A stretch of 64,000 nucleotides of DNA from contig OV696605.1 in the NCBI GenBank assembly GCA_927797885.1, positions 1,835,157 to 1,899,156 of the forward strand. Direction: 5' to 3'. Source of the stretch: Gloeomargaritales cyanobacterium VI4D9. Its GTDB lineage: Bacteria > Cyanobacteriota > Cyanobacteriia > Gloeomargaritales > Gloeomargaritaceae. The notes beneath the pieces are model-generated. The model saw only the letters and a list, made by a program, of their open reading frames with translations, made no database searches and was not told where the DNA came from. The translations under genes and the position numbers were made by a program. Below, piece by piece: positions 11,433-27,026 of this stretch (positions are counted from its first letter, which is position 1; the number at the start of each line of letters is the position of its first letter).

Positions 11433-11855
11433 TCATTGTTCCAGTCCAAATTCCCGTAGCGCCAGGGGCAAGTTCCGATGTTCATGTCCCGGACGGCTGA
11501 GCTTGAGCAGGACAAAGCGTTGTAATGGGGTCAACTGCCGCCACCGGTCAAGGGTGAGGACTGCCACTAAATCCGGGGGAACCGCCTCTTCCTGTAACCA
11601 CACCGGTTCGACCGCTATCGTGCCTGCCGGTTGTCCCGTTTGTTCCGTCACCCAGGCTTGCAGTTGCAGGGTGTATTGCTTTTGTAAATCCAACGTCTCG
11701 CAGGGAGTATCCACCAACCACTGGCGCTGATCCAACGACAGGGTGTGCCAATGGGCGAGTTTGAGTTTGATGCCGCAGGTATCCAGCCGGTAGCGCACCA
11801 CCATCGGAATACACCGCCAATTGGCTACAAAATCCTGTTCAAACCCGAAAATCAT
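11433..11855 (-). CDS. Nitrate reductase associated protein
   Basis: 140 residues from the ATG at 11855 ([20 protein letters not shown]), which has GGAGGG upstream. The pattern FGFEQDF...[16 protein letters not shown]...W matches the small cyanobacterial family found beside narB. Its biochemical role is not established. It overlaps the end of narB by 17 bases and feeds into ntcB, so the three genes look co-transcribed. Confidence 0.8.
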
Positions 11856-13968
11856 CTTTTCCCTCCCGTTCCACCCGCACGGCACAGGCTTTGAGTTCCG
11901 GTTGTTTGGAAATAGGACAACTTTGGGGATGGGTTAACTCGTTGGCCGCCTGTTGCACCCCCCACAATTCCCCCCAATGCATGGGCAGAAACACAGCACC
12001 GGGACGCACCTGCTCCCCCACCATCACCTTGACCCGCACCTGACCCCGCCGGGAACGCACCCGCACCCAATCCCCACTTTGGATGCCCAGTTTTTCGGCA
12101 TCGTGGGGATGCATTGCCAATAGCGGCTCCGGGTGCATTTTTTGGATTTTGGGAATGCGACCCGTGCGGGTTTGGGTATGCCAATGCCCGTAATAGCGTC
12201 CCGTCGTCAGCACCAGGGGAAAATCCCCATCGGGCGGTTCGGCAACCCCTTGACTTCTGAGCGCGGCAAAGCGAGCCTTGCCGTCGGGGGTGGCAAATTG
12301 TTTATCTAAGTACAAACGCTTGACCCGAACCGCTTCACCATCGCTCGTGTCCGCAGGACAAGGCCACGCCACCGGTCCTAAGCGAGCCAGTCGTTCATGG
12401 CTCAAACCGCTGTAGTCACACACCCGCCCTTGGGTCAACTGGACAAATTCCTGAAACACCTCAGCGGCAGTAGCGAAACGAAATTGCGCCTCGTATCCTA
12501 ACCGCCGTCCCACCTCCGCCAAAATTTCCCAATCTGGGCGCGCCGACCCCGGTGGTGACAAGAACTGGGGACAAAGGGTCACCTGGCGTTCCGAATTGGT
12601 CATCGTACCCGTTTTTTCCCCCCACTGCGCCGCCGGTAATAACAGATGGGCATAGGCAGTGGTTTCTGTTGGCGCATAGGCATCCTGCACCACCGTAAAA
12701 GGACTTTGTTGAAACGCCGCCCGCACCCGCTCCAAGTGGGGCATACTCACCAAGGGATTGGTGGCAATGATCCAGACAAAATGCACCTGGTTTTGCTCCA
12801 AACCAGTAACGATTTCCCACATACTGCGCCCGGGTTGCGGGGCAATACTACCCGGTTTTAAGCCCCAAAAATCTTCAATTTCCCGGCGATGTTGCGGGTT
12901 TTCCACCTGCCGATAACCGGGCAGTAAATGCGCCAATCCCCCCGCTTCTCGCCCCCCCATCGCATTGGGTTGTCCTGTCAAAGAAAACGGGCCACACCCA
13001 GGTCGCCCGATCTGTCCCGTGAGCAGGTGCAAATCAATCAAACTGCGCGCCTTGGCTGTCCCTTCAGCAGACTGGTTCACCCCCATTGACCACAGGGACA
13101 ACACCCGCTCTGCATTGCCCCACCACTGCGCCGCCTGCACCAATTGGTCAACTGCAATGCCACAGCGTTGGGCAACCCACTCCGGCGGATAATTTTGAAT
13201 CACCTGCACATACTGCTCAAACCCTTGGGTGTGCTGTTGAATAAACACTTCATCTATCTTTCCCCATTGCCACAACAAATATCCCAGTCCCTGTAGTAAA
13301 TCTATATCCGTCCCCGGTCGAATCGCCAAATGTAAATCCGCCACCGCCGCCGTCGGGGTAGAACGGGGATCAACAACAATCAGCTTCACATCCCCCCTGC
13401 GCTTATGGGATTGCCGCAAACGATTAAAAACAATCGGATGGCATTCCGCCGTATTTGTGCCCAGTAAAAAGGCACAGTCCGTTAATTCCAAATCCTCATA
13501 ACAACAGGGCGACCCATCACTGCCCAAACTCGCTTGATAAGCCGACACCGCCGAAGACATACACATCCGGGAATTCGTATCAAAATTATTCGTTCCCAAA
13601 CACCCCTTGACTAATTTTTGGGCAACATAATAGTCCTCCGTTTGCAGTTGTCCCGAGCCATAAAAACAAATAGCATCAGACCCATATTCTTGCCGCACGT
13701 TGTTTAATTGTTCCACCAAAAGGTTAAATGCTTCCTCCCAAGCAATTGGTTGAAAATCATCGGTCAATTTACGTCGCCACTGCGGTTCGGTCAAACGACT
13801 GACCCCCACACTTTCCAGGATGGTTGCCCCCTTGACACAGACCATCCCCAAACTCGACGGATGCGCCCGGTCTCCCCGAATTTTGTAGGAACCATTTGCC
13901 TGCAAAACTGCCTCCAACCCGCAACCCACCCCACAATAGGGGCATAAAGTACGAACGATGCTACTCAT
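11839..13968 (-). CDS. narB: Ferredoxin-nitrate reductase NarB
   Basis: Reduces nitrate to nitrite with electrons from ferredoxin; it binds a [4Fe-4S] cluster and a bis-MGD molybdenum cofactor. 709 residues. The cluster cysteines are at the N-terminus ([11 protein letters not shown], then GMVCVKG). Molybdopterin-binding segments follow ([42 protein letters not shown]) and the C-terminal dinucleotide-binding domain ([26 protein letters not shown]). It is transcribed away from nirA. In Synechococcus elongatus narB ends the nirA-nrt operon, so the arrangement here differs. Confidence 0.96.
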
Positions 13969-14049: not shown

Positions 14050-14080
14050 AAGTCATACAAAAACCGTATCAAGTCATACA
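14050..14080. promoter_or_regulatory. Paired direct repeats with overlapping NtcA-type site
   Basis: AAGTCATACA occurs at 14050-14059 and again at 14071-14080, 21 bases apart, i.e. on the same DNA face. GTA-N8-TAC (14066-14079), the NtcA consensus, overlaps the second repeat. On the minus strand TATATT lies 15 bases beyond the site toward narB, which is shorter than the usual NtcA spacing of about 22. The site may serve narB but is less certain than the nirA site. Confidence 0.5.
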
Positions 14081-14187: not shown

Positions 14188-14230
14188 GTAACAAAAGCTA
14201 CGATTCTTTCAGGGATGGGTAGGCTATATT
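14188..14230 (+). promoter_or_regulatory. NtcA-activated nirA promoter
   Basis: GTA-N8-TAC at 14188-14201 is followed after 23 bases by the -10 box TATATT (14225-14230). This is the canonical class II NtcA promoter layout. It predicts transcription starting about 14237 and full activation under nitrogen limitation for the nirA-to-moaE run. Confidence 0.85.
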
Positions 14231-14259: not shown

Positions 14260-15849
14260 ATGGCTAATAAAATCGAAGCGATCAAATCCGCTAGGGATGG
14301 GTTAGCGATCCGGGATGAAATTGCGACCTGGGCACAACAGGGTTGGGAGCATATTGACAAGGATGATTTAGAGCATCGTCTCAAGTGGCTAGGGATTTTT
14401 TTCCGTAAAATCACCCCTGGCAAATTTATGTTGCGCCTGCGGGTGCCACACGGAATTTTAACGGCGACTCAGATACAGGTATTGGCACAAATTTTAGAGG
14501 ACTGTGGTGCCGATGGTGTCGGGGATATTACCACCCGTCAAAACATCCAATTGAGGGGCATTGAGTTTGCCAACATTCCGAATATTTTACAAGCCTTAAC
14601 CAAGGTGGGTTTAACCAGTGTGCAATCTGGGATGGACAATGTGCGGAATATCACCGGTTCTCCTGTGTCTGGAATTGACCCGAATGAACTGTATGACACC
14701 CGTTCCCTGGTACAAGCAGTGCAGGATATGGTGACCAACGGGGGGCGCGGCAATCCTGAATTTACCAATTTACCCCGCAAATTTAATATCGCCATTAATG
14801 GATGTCGTGACAATTCTACTCACGCAGAAATTAATGACTTAGCTTTTATTCCCGCCTATCAAACCGGGCATCCCCAATCTCGTTTTGGTTTCAATGTTTT
14901 AGTGGGCGGTTTCTTCTCCAGTAAACGGGTGGCGACTGCGATTCCTTTGGATGCCTGGGTGACACCAGAGCAGGTGGTGGATGTTTGTCGCGCCGTATTA
15001 TTAGTCTTTCGGGATCATGGCTTGCGAGAAAATCGCCAACAATCCCGCTTAATGTGGTTGATTGACGCTTGGGGCATCCCCCAATTTCGTGCCCAGGTGA
15101 TTGCCTACCTTGGTTATGATTTACCCCCTGCGGCTCCCCGGGATGAAATATCCTGGTCAAAGCGTGATCATTTAGGTTTACATCCCCAAAAACAAGCGGG
15201 ATTATACTATGCCGGTTTCCATATCCCAGTGGGAAGAATTACGGCTCAAGATATGTTTACCTTTGCGGAACTTGCCAACCGATATGGACAGGGTGAACTG
15301 CGTTTAACTGTGGAGCAGAATTTAATTATTCCCCATATTCCTGAGGAAAAAATTGCCGATTTTCTCCAGGAGCCTATTTTGCAAAAATTTCCCCTGAAAC
15401 CCACTTTGCTGATGCGGGGATTAGTCTCCTGCACAGGGAACCAATTTTGTAATCTGGCTATTATCGAAACCAAAAATCGAGCATTAAATTTGGTTCGGGA
15501 ATTAGAGGAATTGCTGGAGTTACACCAACCGGTTCGTATTCACTGGAGTGGCTGTCCTAACTCCTGCGGTCAACCCCAAGTAGGCGACATTGGATTTATC
15601 GGATGTAAAACCAAGAAAAATGGGAAACCCGTGGATGGCGTAGATATTTATTTAGGCGGAAAAGTGGGGCACGAAGCAACGCTTGGTAATTGCATCATGA
15701 AAGGAATTCCCTGTGAAGATTTGTTGGGGATTGTCGCTGATTTACTCATCCGTCATTTTGGGGCACTTCCCCGCTCTAATCTCAGCCTTGAACGTCTAGG
15801 ATTGGACGGAGCCACCCATTCCCCATCTACTTCCGTTTCTGCGGTTTAG
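14260..15849 (+). CDS. nirA: Ferredoxin-nitrite reductase NirA
   Basis: Reduces nitrite to ammonium in six electron steps with ferredoxin, using sirohaem and a [4Fe-4S] cluster. 529 residues. The cofactor cysteines are in CTGNQFC (about 397) and CPNSCGQ (about 438). Both half repeats are visible (DITTRQNIQLRG early and ELRLTVEQNLIIPHI late). It is the first gene of the rightward nitrate operon, 24 bases before nrtA, and is noticeably more A+T rich than narB. Confidence 0.96.
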   Translation: MANKIEAIKSARDGLAIRDEIATWAQQGWEHIDKDDLEHRLKWLGIFFRKITPGKFMLRLRVPHGILTATQIQVLAQILEDCGADGVGDITTRQNIQLRGIEFANIPNILQALTKVGLTSVQSGMDNVRNITGSPVSGIDPNELYDTRSLVQAVQDMVTNGGRGNPEFTNLPRKFNIAINGCRDNSTHAEINDLAFIPAYQTGHPQSRFGFNVLVGGFFSSKRVATAIPLDAWVTPEQVVDVCRAVLLVFRDHGLRENRQQSRLMWLIDAWGIPQFRAQVIAYLGYDLPPAAPRDEISWSKRDHLGLHPQKQAGLYYAGFHIPVGRITAQDMFTFAELANRYGQGELRLTVEQNLIIPHIPEEKIADFLQEPILQKFPLKPTLLMRGLVSCTGNQFCNLAIIETKNRALNLVRELEELLELHQPVRIHWSGCPNSCGQPQVGDIGFIGCKTKKNGKPVDGVDIYLGGKVGHEATLGNCIMKGIPCEDLLGIVADLLIRHFGALPRSNLSLERLGLDGATHSPSTSVSAV

Positions 15850-20777: not shown

Positions 20778-21941
20778 ATGATTCCTGTAGAAGAAGCAGA
20801 ACAAATTATTAAAACCCACTGGAGCAATACAAAACACGAAGTGATTGCTTTAGAATCTTGTGCGGGAAGAATCCTAGCACAATCTATCCATGCTGACCGA
20901 GACTATCCCCCCATTAACCGAGTCATGATGGATGGAATTGCTATTAGTAAACAAGCCTACGATCATGGACTTAGAAAGTTTATCATTGTGGGTATGGCAA
21001 CTGCGGGAACAGCACCCCTCAATCTGGAGAATATTGAAACCTGCATCGAAGTGACAACGGGATGCCCTTTGCCCGATGGTGCTGATTTAGTGATTCCCTA
21101 CGAAGAACTGAGCATTCATCAGGGAGTAGCAGAAATTATTATTGACCAGCATCGAAAGGCTCAAGATTGCGTTCATCCACAAGGGAGTGATTGCCGCCTG
21201 GGTGAAGTAATCATACCATCTGGAACTAGGCTTAAAGGGATTCATTTAGGAATTTTGGCTAGCTTTGGTTACACAAAAGTTTTAGTAGAAAAATCTCCCA
21301 AAATCAAAGTCATTGCTACCGGTGATGAACTCATTCCCATTGACCAAAACCCACAACCCTATCAACTGCGTAGGTCGAATGTTTATGCCCTAAGAGCATC
21401 CTTACTCTCCTATGGTTACTCGGATGTTGAAATAGACCATATTCCTGATATTCCAGAATTAATCCTGTCCCATTATCAACAGAATCAACAGACCTATGAC
21501 TTATTAATTTATTCCGGCGGTGTTTCCAAAGGAAAACGAGACTATCTCCCCCAAATTTGGCAAGACACGGGTGTCATACCTTATATTCAAGGGGTTCGAC
21601 AAAAGCCTGGAAAACCGATGTGGTTTGGCATAGATCATCAAAGTAATACCATCATTTTAGGCTTACCTGGTAATCCAATTTCTGCATTAGTGTGTTTGCA
21701 CCGCTACCTCTTGAATCGGAGTAAATCCTATGGTTCTTTACAGAAGATTATCACATTTGAACCAGATTTAACCTACTTTGTGCCAGTTAAAATCAATGCC
21801 AAGCATGAGCTTATGCCAATAATGCCTCAAAATTCAGGAGATTTTGTTGCCCTAGTGGACAGTGATGGTTTTGTAGAACTTCCGCAAAATAAAAAGCAGT
21901 TTACTCCGCAAGAGCAATTTTCCTTCTATCCTTGGTATTGA
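20778..21941 (+). CDS. moeA: Molybdopterin molybdenumtransferase MoeA
   Basis: Inserts molybdate into adenylylated molybdopterin. 387 residues with NRVMMDGIAI, TGCPLPDGADLVIPYE, the nucleotide-binding VIATGDELIPI, SGGVSKGKRDYLP and LPGNPISALV motifs. It provides the Mo cofactor that NarB needs, in the same transcript. A+T content is higher than in the surrounding core genes. Confidence 0.94.
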   Translation: MIPVEEAEQIIKTHWSNTKHEVIALESCAGRILAQSIHADRDYPPINRVMMDGIAISKQAYDHGLRKFIIVGMATAGTAPLNLENIETCIEVTTGCPLPDGADLVIPYEELSIHQGVAEIIIDQHRKAQDCVHPQGSDCRLGEVIIPSGTRLKGIHLGILASFGYTKVLVEKSPKIKVIATGDELIPIDQNPQPYQLRRSNVYALRASLLSYGYSDVEIDHIPDIPELILSHYQQNQQTYDLLIYSGGVSKGKRDYLPQIWQDTGVIPYIQGVRQKPGKPMWFGIDHQSNTIILGLPGNPISALVCLHRYLLNRSKSYGSLQKIITFEPDLTYFVPVKINAKHELMPIMPQNSGDFVALVDSDGFVELPQNKKQFTPQEQFSFYPWY

Positions 21942-21943
21942 AT

Positions 21944-22882
21944 ATGAAACTGGTTGACCATTGGCAACGTCAGATTCGTAAACTGAGGGTGTCATTAACC
22001 GACCGCTGTAATTTGCGCTGTCGCTACTGCATGCCACTGCATCCTAATTTCATGGATAAGCATAGCTATTTAACCCCAGATGAATACGTTGATATAATTC
22101 AAGAATTACTAACCTATGGCATCGAGGAGATTCGCATTACAGGGGGGGAGCCGTTGGTACGACCGGAATTTTCTGAAATCATGTTAAAATTGAGTATGCT
22201 TAGCATTCCACAATTGAGCTTGACAACCAATGGCATTTTACTCCACCAGTATTGGGAAATTCTTAAAAAATGCAATGTCACGAAAATCAACATTAGCCTA
22301 GATAGTTTACAACCGAAAACCTTTGCATCCATCACCTATCGAAATAGTTTGTCTAGGATTTTAGAGAATATCAGACAAGCTGTTGCTCAAGGATTTGATA
22401 TTAAAATCAATGTGGTGCTGATGCGGGGAATTAACGACTGTGAGTTATTTGATTTTATAGAATATGCTCAAAAATTGTCCGTCACCGTAAGATTTTTAGA
22501 GTTAATGCAGATTGGCTATGCTAATGAGCTATATGATCATCATTTCATCTCAGCCCAAGAATGTATTAATCAATTACAAACTCGCTATAGAATGAATAGA
22601 ATTAATTCTGTATCTGACTCCACTGCTTTTTATTTTGAGCTTGATAGTGGGGTAAAAGTTGGCTTTATTGCTTCGGAATCCCAACCTTTTTGCAATAGTT
22701 GTTCTCGCTGGCGATTGTCTGCTGATGGACGTTTATTTGCCTGTTTATTTATAGAAAAAGGTATCTCCATACGCAACATCTCATCCGAAACTAGGCATCA
22801 CATTTATGAGCAGTTATTAGGCATGAAGCCAATCCAACGTTCAGCCCATGTTTTACGTGCGATGTATGGAATTGGAGGATAA
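21944..22882 (+). CDS. moaA: GTP 3',8-cyclase MoaA
   Basis: Radical SAM enzyme for the first step of molybdopterin synthesis. The N-terminal cluster is CNLRCRYC; the second cluster is CNSCSRW...FAC near the C-terminus; the protein ends in GG as in active MoaA. I start at the ATG 21944 rather than an in-frame TTG 12 bases upstream. ITGGEPLVRP is the GGE motif for SAM. Confidence 0.94.
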   Translation: MKLVDHWQRQIRKLRVSLTDRCNLRCRYCMPLHPNFMDKHSYLTPDEYVDIIQELLTYGIEEIRITGGEPLVRPEFSEIMLKLSMLSIPQLSLTTNGILLHQYWEILKKCNVTKINISLDSLQPKTFASITYRNSLSRILENIRQAVAQGFDIKINVVLMRGINDCELFDFIEYAQKLSVTVRFLELMQIGYANELYDHHFISAQECINQLQTRYRMNRINSVSDSTAFYFELDSGVKVGFIASESQPFCNSCSRWRLSADGRLFACLFIEKGISIRNISSETRHHIYEQLLGMKPIQRSAHVLRAMYGIGG

Positions 22883-22886
22883 TAGG

Positions 22887-23921
22887 ATGTTTACTCATTT
22901 AGATGCTCAAAATCAGCCAAGGATGGTTGATGTTAGCGGTAAAAATATTACGATAAGGAGTGCTACTGCCCAAGCGCAAATCCAATTACCCAGACGTTTA
23001 CAAGAATATATCAAGGGTAATGAAATTGTGCTTGAAAAGGGTGCCGTTTTTCAAACAGCAATCATCGCCGGGACAATGGCGGTAAAAAAGACGCAGGAAC
23101 TCATTCCCTTCTGCCATCAAATTCCCATAGAAAGCTGTAGGTTTGAAATTAATATAGATGATAACTTTCTTGTGACGATAAACTGTAGGGTTAAAACCTC
23201 AGCTAAAACGGGTGTAGAAATGGAGGCTCTTTGTGGTGTGACAATTGCGGCACTTACAATTTATGATATGTGCAAATCCGTATCATCAGACATGATAATT
23301 CGAGAGAGTCGGTTATTAACGAAAACTGGTGGTAAAACCACTCGCCTAGAACGCCCTTTGTATGGTTTAATCCTCACGGGTGGTCTCAGTAAACGCATGG
23401 GTCAAGATAAGGCTTTGCTAGATTATCATGGACAGCCTTGTGCTTTATATTTATATAAACTAATGCAATCCTATTGTGAACAGGTTTATCTCTCGGCTCG
23501 CCCTGATCAATGGTTATCCACCCCCCTTGAAGGACTACCGATACTCCCGGATCAAGTCACCAGCGTCGGACCAATTAGTGGACTATTAACCGCATTTCAA
23601 ACCCATCCTGATGTAAATTGGTTGGTGATTGCCTGCGATTTAATGCAAGTACAGGCTCATACGATTGAATATCTCTTAGCTGATTATCAAGAAAACACTA
23701 TTGCCACATGTTATAGGAATCATGAACAGGGATTTCCGGAACCTCTGTGTGCTATTTATACCCCCAAAGCACAAGCGGTTTTTGCAGAAGCCTATCAGGC
23801 GGGTATTTATTGTCCTGTGAAGATTTTACAAAATCAATCCTGTACCCTAGTCAAACCCCGAAATCCGAATGAATTAATGAATGTCAATACCCCAGAAGAC
23901 TATGCACGCATCGGCAACTAA
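22887..23921 (+). CDS. moaC: Fusion of cyclic pyranopterin phosphate synthase MoaC and guanylyltransferase MobA
   Basis: 344 residues from the ATG at 22887, after GGAGG. Residues 1-150 are MoaC (MVDVSGK, KKTQELIPFCHQIPI, KTGVEMEAL, TIYDMCKS), which makes cyclic pyranopterin phosphate with MoaA. From about residue 158 the chain is a MobA-type nucleotidyltransferase (ILTGGLSKRMGQDKALL, LPDQVTSVGPISGLL, VIACDL, FPEPLCAIY), which attaches GMP to form MGD, the form NarB binds. In PCC 7942 MoaC is reported fused to a MoaB/Mog-like domain instead, so this partner is different. Confidence 0.9.
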   Translation: MFTHLDAQNQPRMVDVSGKNITIRSATAQAQIQLPRRLQEYIKGNEIVLEKGAVFQTAIIAGTMAVKKTQELIPFCHQIPIESCRFEINIDDNFLVTINCRVKTSAKTGVEMEALCGVTIAALTIYDMCKSVSSDMIIRESRLLTKTGGKTTRLERPLYGLILTGGLSKRMGQDKALLDYHGQPCALYLYKLMQSYCEQVYLSARPDQWLSTPLEGLPILPDQVTSVGPISGLLTAFQTHPDVNWLVIACDLMQVQAHTIEYLLADYQENTIATCYRNHEQGFPEPLCAIYTPKAQAVFAEAYQAGIYCPVKILQNQSCTLVKPRNPNELMNVNTPEDYARIGN

Positions 23922-24159
23922 GACGATTACCATTCAATATGTCGCCATGTTCAAAGACCAGGCAGACCGGTCAATGGAAAAGATCGAGACTGAGATAAAA
24001 ACCTGTTCTGAACTGTATGAGTATTTACAGGAAAAATATAAATTTGCGATTCCTCTATCACAAATAAGAGTGGCTATCAACCATGAGTTTTGCCCTATGA
24101 CACAACTCTTAAAAGAGCAAGATTTAGTGATTTTTATTCCACCGGTATGTGGGGGCTAA
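23902..24159 (+). CDS. moaD: Molybdopterin synthase small subunit MoaD
   Basis: Ubiquitin-like sulfur carrier ending in the essential Gly-Gly (PPVCGG). Fold residues TITIQYVAMFKDQA begin the first strand. Either ATG 23902 or 23881 could start it; both overlap the MoaC-MobA stop. It is immediately followed by its partner moaE. Confidence 0.9.
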   Translation: MHASATKTITIQYVAMFKDQADRSMEKIETEIKTCSELYEYLQEKYKFAIPLSQIRVAINHEFCPMTQLLKEQDLVIFIPPVCGG

Positions 24160-24615
24160 ATGATTCAATTTACCCTTAGTTCTAACCCTATCTGTCCCTC
24201 TGCAATGAGCCGTCTATTAGTCAATAGTACCGTGGGAGCTTTAGTTACATTTGAAGGTTGGGTACGCAATCACAACGAAGGAAAATCTGTGTTGGGTTTA
24301 GAATATGAAGTGTATGAAATTCTAGCCCGAAAGGAAGGTGAAAAAATTCTCCAGGAGGCCCAAACTAAATTTAATCTTTCTGGTGCCGTTGCTTGTCACC
24401 GTTATGGTTATTTAGACATTGGTGAAATTGCTGTTTGGGTTGGCACAACTGGGGTGCATCGTGGCTCAGCGTTTGCCGGAACTCGTTATATTATTAATGG
24501 GATTAAAAGTCGTTTACCGATCTGGAAGAAAGAATTTTATATCGGGGAAAAACCGCAGTGGATATTATGTCCACAAAATCATATAGAAATCCTAAATAAG
24601 AACAAAACAAGATGA
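24160..24615 (+). CDS. moaE: Molybdopterin synthase catalytic subunit MoaE
   Basis: Transfers the MoaD sulfur to cyclic pyranopterin. 151 residues with GALVTFEGWVRNHNEGK, LEYEVYEILA, RYGYLDIGEIAVWVG and the active-site lysines in IKSRLPIWKKE. It begins directly after the moaD stop. The last nine residues (from EILNKNKTR) are read from a decayed MITE A end, so the natural tail has probably been replaced. Confidence 0.93.
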   Translation: MIQFTLSSNPICPSAMSRLLVNSTVGALVTFEGWVRNHNEGKSVLGLEYEVYEILARKEGEKILQEAQTKFNLSGAVACHRYGYLDIGEIAVWVGTTGVHRGSAFAGTRYIINGIKSRLPIWKKEFYIGEKPQWILCPQNHIEILNKNKTR

Positions 24616-25340: not shown

Positions 25341-25918
25341 TGTCGAAGTTGGTCAGATGGTGGATGCCACTCTCATTCCCGTGCCAGTCCAACGGAATAA
25401 GAAAATCAAGAAGTAAAGGAAGGGAACATTCCTAAGCAATGGGGGAAAAACCCCCATGTTTTACGGCAAGAGATGCCCGTTGGGTAAAGAAAAATGGTGT
25501 TAGTTATTTTGGCTATAAAAATCATATCAGCGTAGATGTAAAATATGGTTTTGTGCGTCATTATGTGGTCACGGATGCCTCCGTGCATGACTCCCAAGTA
25601 TTCAGTCAACTCGTGGATATTGATGGCCAAGAAATCTGGGGAGATAGTGCCTATCACAGCACGGATTTAGAATGGACATTAGCAAAAATCCATGAAAAAG
25701 GCTACCGCAGAGCAAAATGAAAAGAATCGCATCAAATCTCAAGTGAGAGCCAAGGTGGAACACGTATTTGGTCAGTGGGTGATGGGTCTTGGGGGTAAGT
25801 TTATGCGTCTGATTGGTAAAACCAGAGTACAGGCGGCAATTGGTTTGAAAAATCTCGCTTATAATTTCCGCCGTTATGCGTTTTGGGAGCGGCGGTCTCT
25901 GGCTGATATAGTCATTCC

Positions 25919-27026
25919 CAGAAGTGTTGAAAGGTAGGTAAAGGCAGAAAAAGAGGGGTCAAAATATGGTATTCTAATTCATATAAACCAAAACATGAAA
26001 CAACTATGAAATTCAATTCTTTTCCCGGGATTGTCAAATTTTTACTCAAAGACCTGCCAACTAATGATTATCCAGTTCTAAATTCTCGCTTATTTTGTTC
26101 AATCTGGTTTGCTGGCATTTTAGACAAAGGAATCAACAGTTTACGGGACTTATTTTACCAATTAAATCATGCGGGCATTAAGGTTGACTTATCCACGTTT
26201 TCTAAGGCGAACAAGACAAGAGACCCACAAATTTTTATGCATCTTTATCATAAATTATTGCATTATATTGAGGAAGCTCATCCTGAAAAGAGGTTGGTTT
26301 TATGTCCTTTTGATGCTACCGTAATACCGCTGATGAGTAAGTTATTTTGGCTCCAAGGCTATCGCCAAGTAAAGTTAATAACCACTTTGAATCAAGATAC
26401 GAAATCTACTGGTCATTTAATTGTTAGTCCTGGACAGGCACATGAGATTAATTTTGGTGAAGATATTGTGAAAATGCTACCGGAAAATGGAGTCGCAGTC
26501 GGGGATAGAGGGTTTTGCAGTCACAAAGTATTTGAACAATTTATCGAAAATGATGCCCTTTTTATTATCCGTATTAAGTCGAATTGGAAATGGGATGAAA
26601 ACTATCATATCACCACAGAACGAGGTAAGGCGAGAGTAGTTTGTTTTGGCAATGTTCAACAGAAAGTAGACTATTATTTAGCTACCAATATTCCTGAGGA
26701 TGTAATGAGTAATGAAGAGATAGGGGAAGCCTATAGACAACGCTGGGCGATAGAGGTACTATGGAAATTTCTAAAGATGAACTTAAAGCTCGATAAAATG
26801 ATGAGTAAAAATTTGAATGGAATTACCATTCAAATTTATGTAATTTTAATAGTTTACTTGATATTGCAACTGTTAAAAGTTCCACGGATGTACGGAAGTA
26901 AATTGGCAGATAAGTTCCGATATATACAAATCTTAATACGGCAGGAGTGGAATTTTGTCCATTGGCTCAATCGGGTCGTCCCACGCCTAAATATGTAAAG
27001 TTTTATTGCAGGATTCAACACTTGTG
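25919..27026 (+). mobile_element. IS4-family insertion sequence, copy 1
   Basis: 1108 bases with terminal inverted repeats CAGAAGTGTTGAA and TTCAACACTTGTG (one mismatch) and a 9-base target duplication AGTCATTCC at 25910-25918 and 27027-27035. It is apparently identical to the copy at 60998-62105, so transposition is recent. Confidence 0.93.
26006..26998 (+). CDS. IS4-family transposase
   Basis: 330 residues, intact. The DDE triad is visible as D in PFDATVIPL (about 110), D in GDRGFCSH (about 167) and E in YRQRWAIEVLWKFLK, which fits the IS4 Y-(2)-R-(3)-E-(6)-K signature. The gene fills most of the IS and has short flanks before the terminal repeats. Confidence 0.93.
   Translation: MKFNSFPGIVKFLLKDLPTNDYPVLNSRLFCSIWFAGILDKGINSLRDLFYQLNHAGIKVDLSTFSKANKTRDPQIFMHLYHKLLHYIEEAHPEKRLVLCPFDATVIPLMSKLFWLQGYRQVKLITTLNQDTKSTGHLIVSPGQAHEINFGEDIVKMLPENGVAVGDRGFCSHKVFEQFIENDALFIIRIKSNWKWDENYHITTERGKARVVCFGNVQQKVDYYLATNIPEDVMSNEEIGEAYRQRWAIEVLWKFLKMNLKLDKMMSKNLNGITIQIYVILIVYLILQLLKVPRMYGSKLADKFRYIQILIRQEWNFVHWLNRVVPRLNM

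Follow-up and report, generated by a model that had tools for sequence, protein, structure and literature searches.

The fusion gene and its neighbourhood

The window, i.e., the whole stretch of 64,000 nucleotides that was analysed, carries an intact open reading frame that joins a MoaC domain to a MobA-type domain and is the third gene of a tight cluster, moeA-moaA-moaC/mobA-moaD-moaE. Genes for nitrate and nitrite reduction lie in the same window. The features are as follows:

11839–13968, minus strand: narB, assimilatory nitrate reductase; no other PF00384 place in the genome; named from its neighbours nirA and the nrt genes
14260–15849, plus strand: nirA, ferredoxin-nitrite reductase; NF007125, 818 bits, above cut-off
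20778–21941, plus strand: moeA of a divergent type; PF03453, PF00994, and PF03454; 25–29% identity to MoeA of non-fused cyanobacteria
21932–22882, plus strand: moaA; TIGR02666, 318 bits, above cut-off
22887–23921, plus strand: moaC-mobA fusion gene, 344 residues; intact reading frame, matched end to end by NF011070 at 580.7 bits; 14 orthologs
22923–23333, plus strand: MoaC domain, residues 13–149; PF01967, E = 4.1e-48; matches MoaC in the PDB
23334–23363, plus strand: linker, residues 150–159; low model confidence at residues 150–154, spacing constant in all orthologs
23364–23918, plus strand: MobA domain, residues 160–344 (Pfam match to residue 302); PF12804, E = 8.6e-28; matches MobA in the PDB
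23902–24159, plus strand: moaD; ThiS family PF02597, E = 1.1e-12; its start lies within the final codons of the fusion gene
24160–24615, plus strand: moaE; PF02391, E = 1.4e-30

The fusion frame runs from an ATG at 22887 to a TAA ending at 23921 without an internal stop, a GGAGG motif lies about 10 bases 5' of the ATG, and no tandem repeats were found at the locus. The first-pass annotation had proposed that MoaC and MobA form one chain here and had named a frameshift or assembly error at the joint as what would undo that proposal. Non-cyanobacterial relatives have moaC and mobA as two distinct frames that overlap, and a single indel error could have fused such frames in the assembly. However, alignment with 14 orthologs (56–90% identity) revealed no insertion or deletion at the joint; these orthologs come from assemblies made independently, several of which consist of a single contig, and all show the same unbroken frame, while no genome with the fusion has another mobA. 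Because the same joint recurs in 14 orthologs, chance and assembly error are excluded, an artefact uniting two separate genes is vanishingly improbable, and the fusion can be regarded as real.

NarB is the sole PF00384 molybdoenzyme of the genome; it scored 567 bits against a NasC-like model, which is below the cut-off of that model. It is likely the client for molybdopterin-guanine dinucleotide (MGD), and the earlier suggestion that the fusion answers NarB's need for MGD fits this arrangement. A separate mobA, whose presence had been left to be checked, was not found in the window's genome by profile search, nor was MobB. Eight further NTP_transf_3 places exist in the genome; none of them matched the MobA model, and they were rejected as hidden mobA genes.

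Two GTAN8TAC sites of the NtcA type (14066–14079 and 14188–14201) lie in the 291 bases that separate the divergently oriented narB and nirA genes, where about 0.03 would be expected from the window-wide chance rate. Downstream of moaE, two DDE transposase frames occupy 25439–26998, the first of which is short and probably broken. Outside the cluster, the 14-mer GTACAAAAAAGTAC is present at three sites in one or the other orientation (27217, 36094, and 36915), possibly at the ends of insertion elements.

Identity of the two halves and comparison with known fusions

Residues 13–149 matched the Pfam MoaC family PF01967 with 163.3 bits (cut-off 27, E = 4e-48) and TIGR00581 with 164.9 bits, above its cut-off of 141.5. 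The N-terminal half retrieved MoaC structures from the PDB by phmmer (2eey, E = 2e-31), and Foldseek comparison of the AlphaFold2 model likewise matched MoaC 2eey (E = 1.3e-15), with PDB entries of the MoaC K51A and D128A variants among the matches. The catalytic residues K51, H77, E111, E113, D127, and K130 (K51, H77, E112, E114, D128, and K131 in E. coli MoaC) are all present and are invariant in the 15 fusions. The catalytic roles of these residues, and of the MobA residues described below, are known from the literature. These matches support the prediction that the N-terminal half is MoaC, the cPMP synthase.

Residues 160–302 matched NTP_transf_3 (PF12804) with 98 bits (cut-off 27, E = 9e-28). 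The C-terminal half matched MobA structures by phmmer (2e8b, E = 5e-11; E. coli 1fr9 and 1e5k, E of about 1e-8), as it did again when the MobA half was searched alone, and Foldseek matched it to MobA 1h4d (E = 4.4e-11, target TM 0.80). MobA as the C-terminal partner is thus borne out both by sequence and by fold, and the other refuting outcome named in the first-pass annotation, a domain search without a MobA fold, did not occur. The AlphaFold2 model of the fusion had a mean pLDDT of 82 with low confidence at residues 150–154, as would be expected of a hinge. The GGxSxRMGxDK loop is present as LTGGLSKRMGQDK, together with the metal-binding aspartate D251, and alignment with E. coli MobA showed a GG..KRMG.DK loop, D251, and an N332-x-N334 motif. 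These residues are invariant in the 15 fusions, except that the aspartate of the loop is replaced by alanine in two; these are the fusion orthologs L025 and L026 of family f18, which read RMGQAK.

Identity to the solved MobA enzymes is remote (about 21–23%), and the half missed the equivalog cut-offs of TIGR02665 (80.6 vs 151.9 bits), NF001457 (99.6 vs 164 bits), and NF002741 (89 vs 179 bits). Because these three models describe stand-alone MobA, we refer to the half as MobA-type and not as an equivalog member. The missed cut-offs, together with the breadth of PF12804, could also be taken to mean that the half is another nucleotidyltransferase, of the cytidylyltransferase MocA, IspD, or GlmU type, and that no MGD is made. 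Against this, MobA models scored 65–157 bits compared with 30 for MocA, MobA structures ranked well above IspD and GlmU, stand-alone MobA has given way to the fusion in each of the genomes examined, and the PF00384 clients are limited to NarB. A MocA, IspD, or GlmU identity was weaker in all searches, and we consider this explanation very unlikely.

The MoaC–MobA architecture is already catalogued and is not new, since NF011070 models it and a review on Synechocystis states it. In NCBIfam release 20.0, NF011070 (PRK14500) is named "putative bifunctional molybdopterin-guanine dinucleotide biosynthesis protein MoaC/MobA". Domain order and length are the same, with residues 1–342 of the 344 aligned to profile positions 7–351 of 358, but the window's fusion fell short of the curated cut-off (580.7 vs 606 bits), so that automatic annotation may name it MoaC only. 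Five other fusions scored 563–669 bits, two of them 665 and 669; as the remaining three were also below 606, this cut-off looks too strict for the fusion clade.

The MoaC-MoaB fusion (NF002947/PRK03604), the type of PCC 7942, whose MoaC is described as carrying a MoaB/Mog-like half at its C terminus, is likewise a MoaC extended by another Moco enzyme; however, its partner is MoCF_biosynth (MogA/MoaB), which differs from the window's MobA in fold and in pathway step. No PF00994 match was found in the window's fusion, and NF002947 matched its MoaC part only. A 361-residue MoaC-MoCF_biosynth (MoaB-like) frame is present in a 2.7-Mb cyanobacterium of our sample (G043, locus L200, from base 1939, with moaA downstream), and the contrast drawn earlier between the two kinds of fusion was correct. 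In the MobB-MobA type (NF011059/PRK14490), MobB is the fusion partner of MobA, with moaC as an overlapping gene of its own; the MobA part of this model gave 157 bits with the window's MobA half, compared with 89 for the cyanobacterial stand-alone model.

For Synechocystis PCC 6803, MoaC (slr0902) has been described as "likely a bifunctional enzyme" that carries out the second and fifth steps (2020 review, PMC7133116), and slr0898-slr0899-slr0900-slr0901-slr0902-ssr1527-slr0903 (nirA, cyanase, moeA, moaA, moaC, moaD, and moaE) are reported to form one transcription unit (PMC10094980). Between nirA and moeA, Synechocystis has cyanase, whereas the window has nitrate transporter genes. The idea that one chain carries the first and the last steps of MGD synthesis holds for the MobA partner but not for MoaC, which acts second, after MoaA.

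Distribution and origin of the fusion

The question of how common the fusion is, left open earlier, was addressed with 386 genomes drawn over the phylum. The fusion was present in 12 of them, patchily distributed over four families: three in the window's genus (family f1), four in genus g7 of f6, four in f18 (three in g27 and one in g68), and one in g47 of f13. Within the window's own genus, six of seven genomes have the fusion, the seventh being only 83% complete; the family's other genus is represented by a single genome, in which the genes are separate. Among 35 panel genomes, stand-alone MobA was detected in all 17 non-fused photosynthetic genomes (203–309 bits, NF002741 cut-off 179) and exceeded that cut-off in none of the 15 fusion genomes; fusion and stand-alone MobA are mutually exclusive in this panel. 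No fusion outside the cyanobacteria was found among the fetched loci, and seemingly full-length non-cyanobacterial fusions proved to be separate overlapping frames.

Quick trees of each half, with SH-aLRT as their only support, placed the 15 fusions in one clade (99 for MoaC and 98 for MobA), apart from the ordinary cyanobacterial clades (97 and 96, respectively) and among Bacteroidota, Gammaproteobacteria, and non-photosynthetic members of the phylum. Neighbouring genes showed a similar pattern. MoaA identity was 52–90% among fusion genomes, 43–48% to three non-photosynthetic operon holders of the phylum, and 34–38% to non-fused cyanobacteria, and MoeA identity was 47–89%, 36–38% (operonic relatives), and 25–29%, respectively. 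The whole moeA-moaA-moaC/mobA-moaD-moaE cluster is thus unlike the usual cyanobacterial genes and apparently foreign, and it resembles the moaC-mob(B)A operons of Bacteroidota and of non-photosynthetic phylum members. The window's genus is split within the fusion clade: three of its genomes grouped with those of f18/g27 and f13/g47 and three others did not, which indicates that the fusion gene probably moved between cyanobacteria.

In the relatives, a mobA or mobB-mobA gene lies directly 3' of moaC (Pfam confirmed MobB in three of the cases tested), and the mob frame and the end of moaC overlap in different phases, so that one small indel would join the two. The fusion probably arose in a moeA-moaA-moaC-(mobB-)mobA-moaD-moaE operon with an out-of-frame overlap between the end of moaC and the start of mobA. 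Evolution presumably ran in this direction, and the operon probably then spread sideways among cyanobacteria, replacing the resident moaA, moaC, and mobA, with the resident MogA/MoaB lost as well.

Proposed function and the missing MogA/MoaB

We consider it highly probable (roughly 0.88) that the fusion is a two-domain enzyme of Moco biosynthesis that arose from an operon with overlapping frames, spread laterally, and mainly serves NarB. MoaA would make 3',8-cH2GTP, which the MoaC domain would convert to cPMP; MoaD/MoaE would add sulfur and MoeA would then insert molybdenum. The MobA domain, on its short flexible linker, would move GMP from GTP onto the molybdenum cofactor, and the resulting (bis-)MGD would go to NarB as the main client. 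We infer enzymatic activity for both halves. MoaC is a hexamer in other bacteria, and the fusion could therefore display several MobA domains per particle if its oligomer state is the same.

Direct channelling between the halves is unlikely because the MoaC and MobA steps are not consecutive; any benefit of joining them may be more modest, such as co-expression or attachment to a Moco-assembly complex. It is an even bet whether the fusion, with both domains active, has any role past co-expression or is a neutral by-product of overlapping genes kept by descent and transfer. The lack of an obvious sense for channelling, the single origin of the fusion, and the sufficiency of overlapping separate genes in relatives speak for neutrality, whereas the fusion has not split in any of the 15 genomes of four families, and its constant linker length hints at constraint.

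The company of the fusion matters in its own right: across 15 genomes of four families, it is found with Moco genes that differ from the resident set and without MogA/MoaB. MogA/MoaB is the molybdopterin-adenylylating enzyme and is considered necessary when molybdate is at normal levels. PF00994 covers MogA/MoaB, MoeA, and CinA, and each of the 15 fusion genomes has exactly two PF00994 genes, which by size and alignment length are CinA and the cluster's MoeA; the window genome's CinA is a 417-residue frame judged from its length and sequence, without a CinA model. A PF00994 search thus found no stand-alone MogA/MoaB in 15 of 15 fusion genomes of four families. In the 386-genome sample, all 12 fusion genomes had two PF00994 matches. 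The query matched 148 non-fused members of the class, almost always through its MoaC part, and 147 of these had at least three PF00994 matches, the exception being G058; class members without MoaC had one. The contrast between fusion and non-fusion genomes was seen within each of the four families (f1, f6, f13, and f18). A search of titles and abstracts found no pertinent literature on MogA loss in cyanobacteria or Bacteroidetes.

Such figures could mean that the fusion makes up for the missing enzyme, for example if the MobA domain activated molybdopterin in place of adenylylation: 15 of 15 fusion genomes lack stand-alone MogA/MoaB, and, as judged by PF00994 match counts, it is retained in 147 of the 148 non-fused class members that have MoaC. 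However, most unfused operon holders (G011 and G025 in the phylum, and Bacteroidota and others) are also without MogA, which indicates that its absence tracks the operon type more than the fusion. Among non-cyanobacterial genomes with adjacent moaC-mob(B)A, a MogA-sized protein was absent in six of seven (Chitinophaga, three Hymenobacter, Sphingobacterium, and Luteolibacter) and present in Larkinella; Lentisphaera, with moaC and mob genes near each other, was also without one, and such a protein was present in three relatives where no mobA was detected up to 3 kb from moaC. The divergent MoeA is at least as good a candidate for the compensating role, and compensation by the fusion appears very unlikely.

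E. coli MoeA can ligate molybdenum to molybdopterin in vitro without MogA, which makes a MogA-independent MoeA a reasonable first hypothesis. We tentatively propose, as a possibility with the odds somewhat against it, that the cluster is a transferable, self-contained Moco/MGD pathway without MogA/MoaB, in which the divergent MoeA inserts molybdate directly, perhaps handing its product to the fused MobA, and that recipients lost their resident moaA, moaC, mobA, and mogA. The fusion genomes offer a natural contrast, in the genetically tractable genus Synechocystis, for asking whether molybdopterin adenylylation is dispensable. The MoeA loop is GGVSVG[DE] in almost all of the non-fused cyanobacteria that were examined and GG[VI]S[KQR]GK in fusion genomes, one of which has GAVSQGK.
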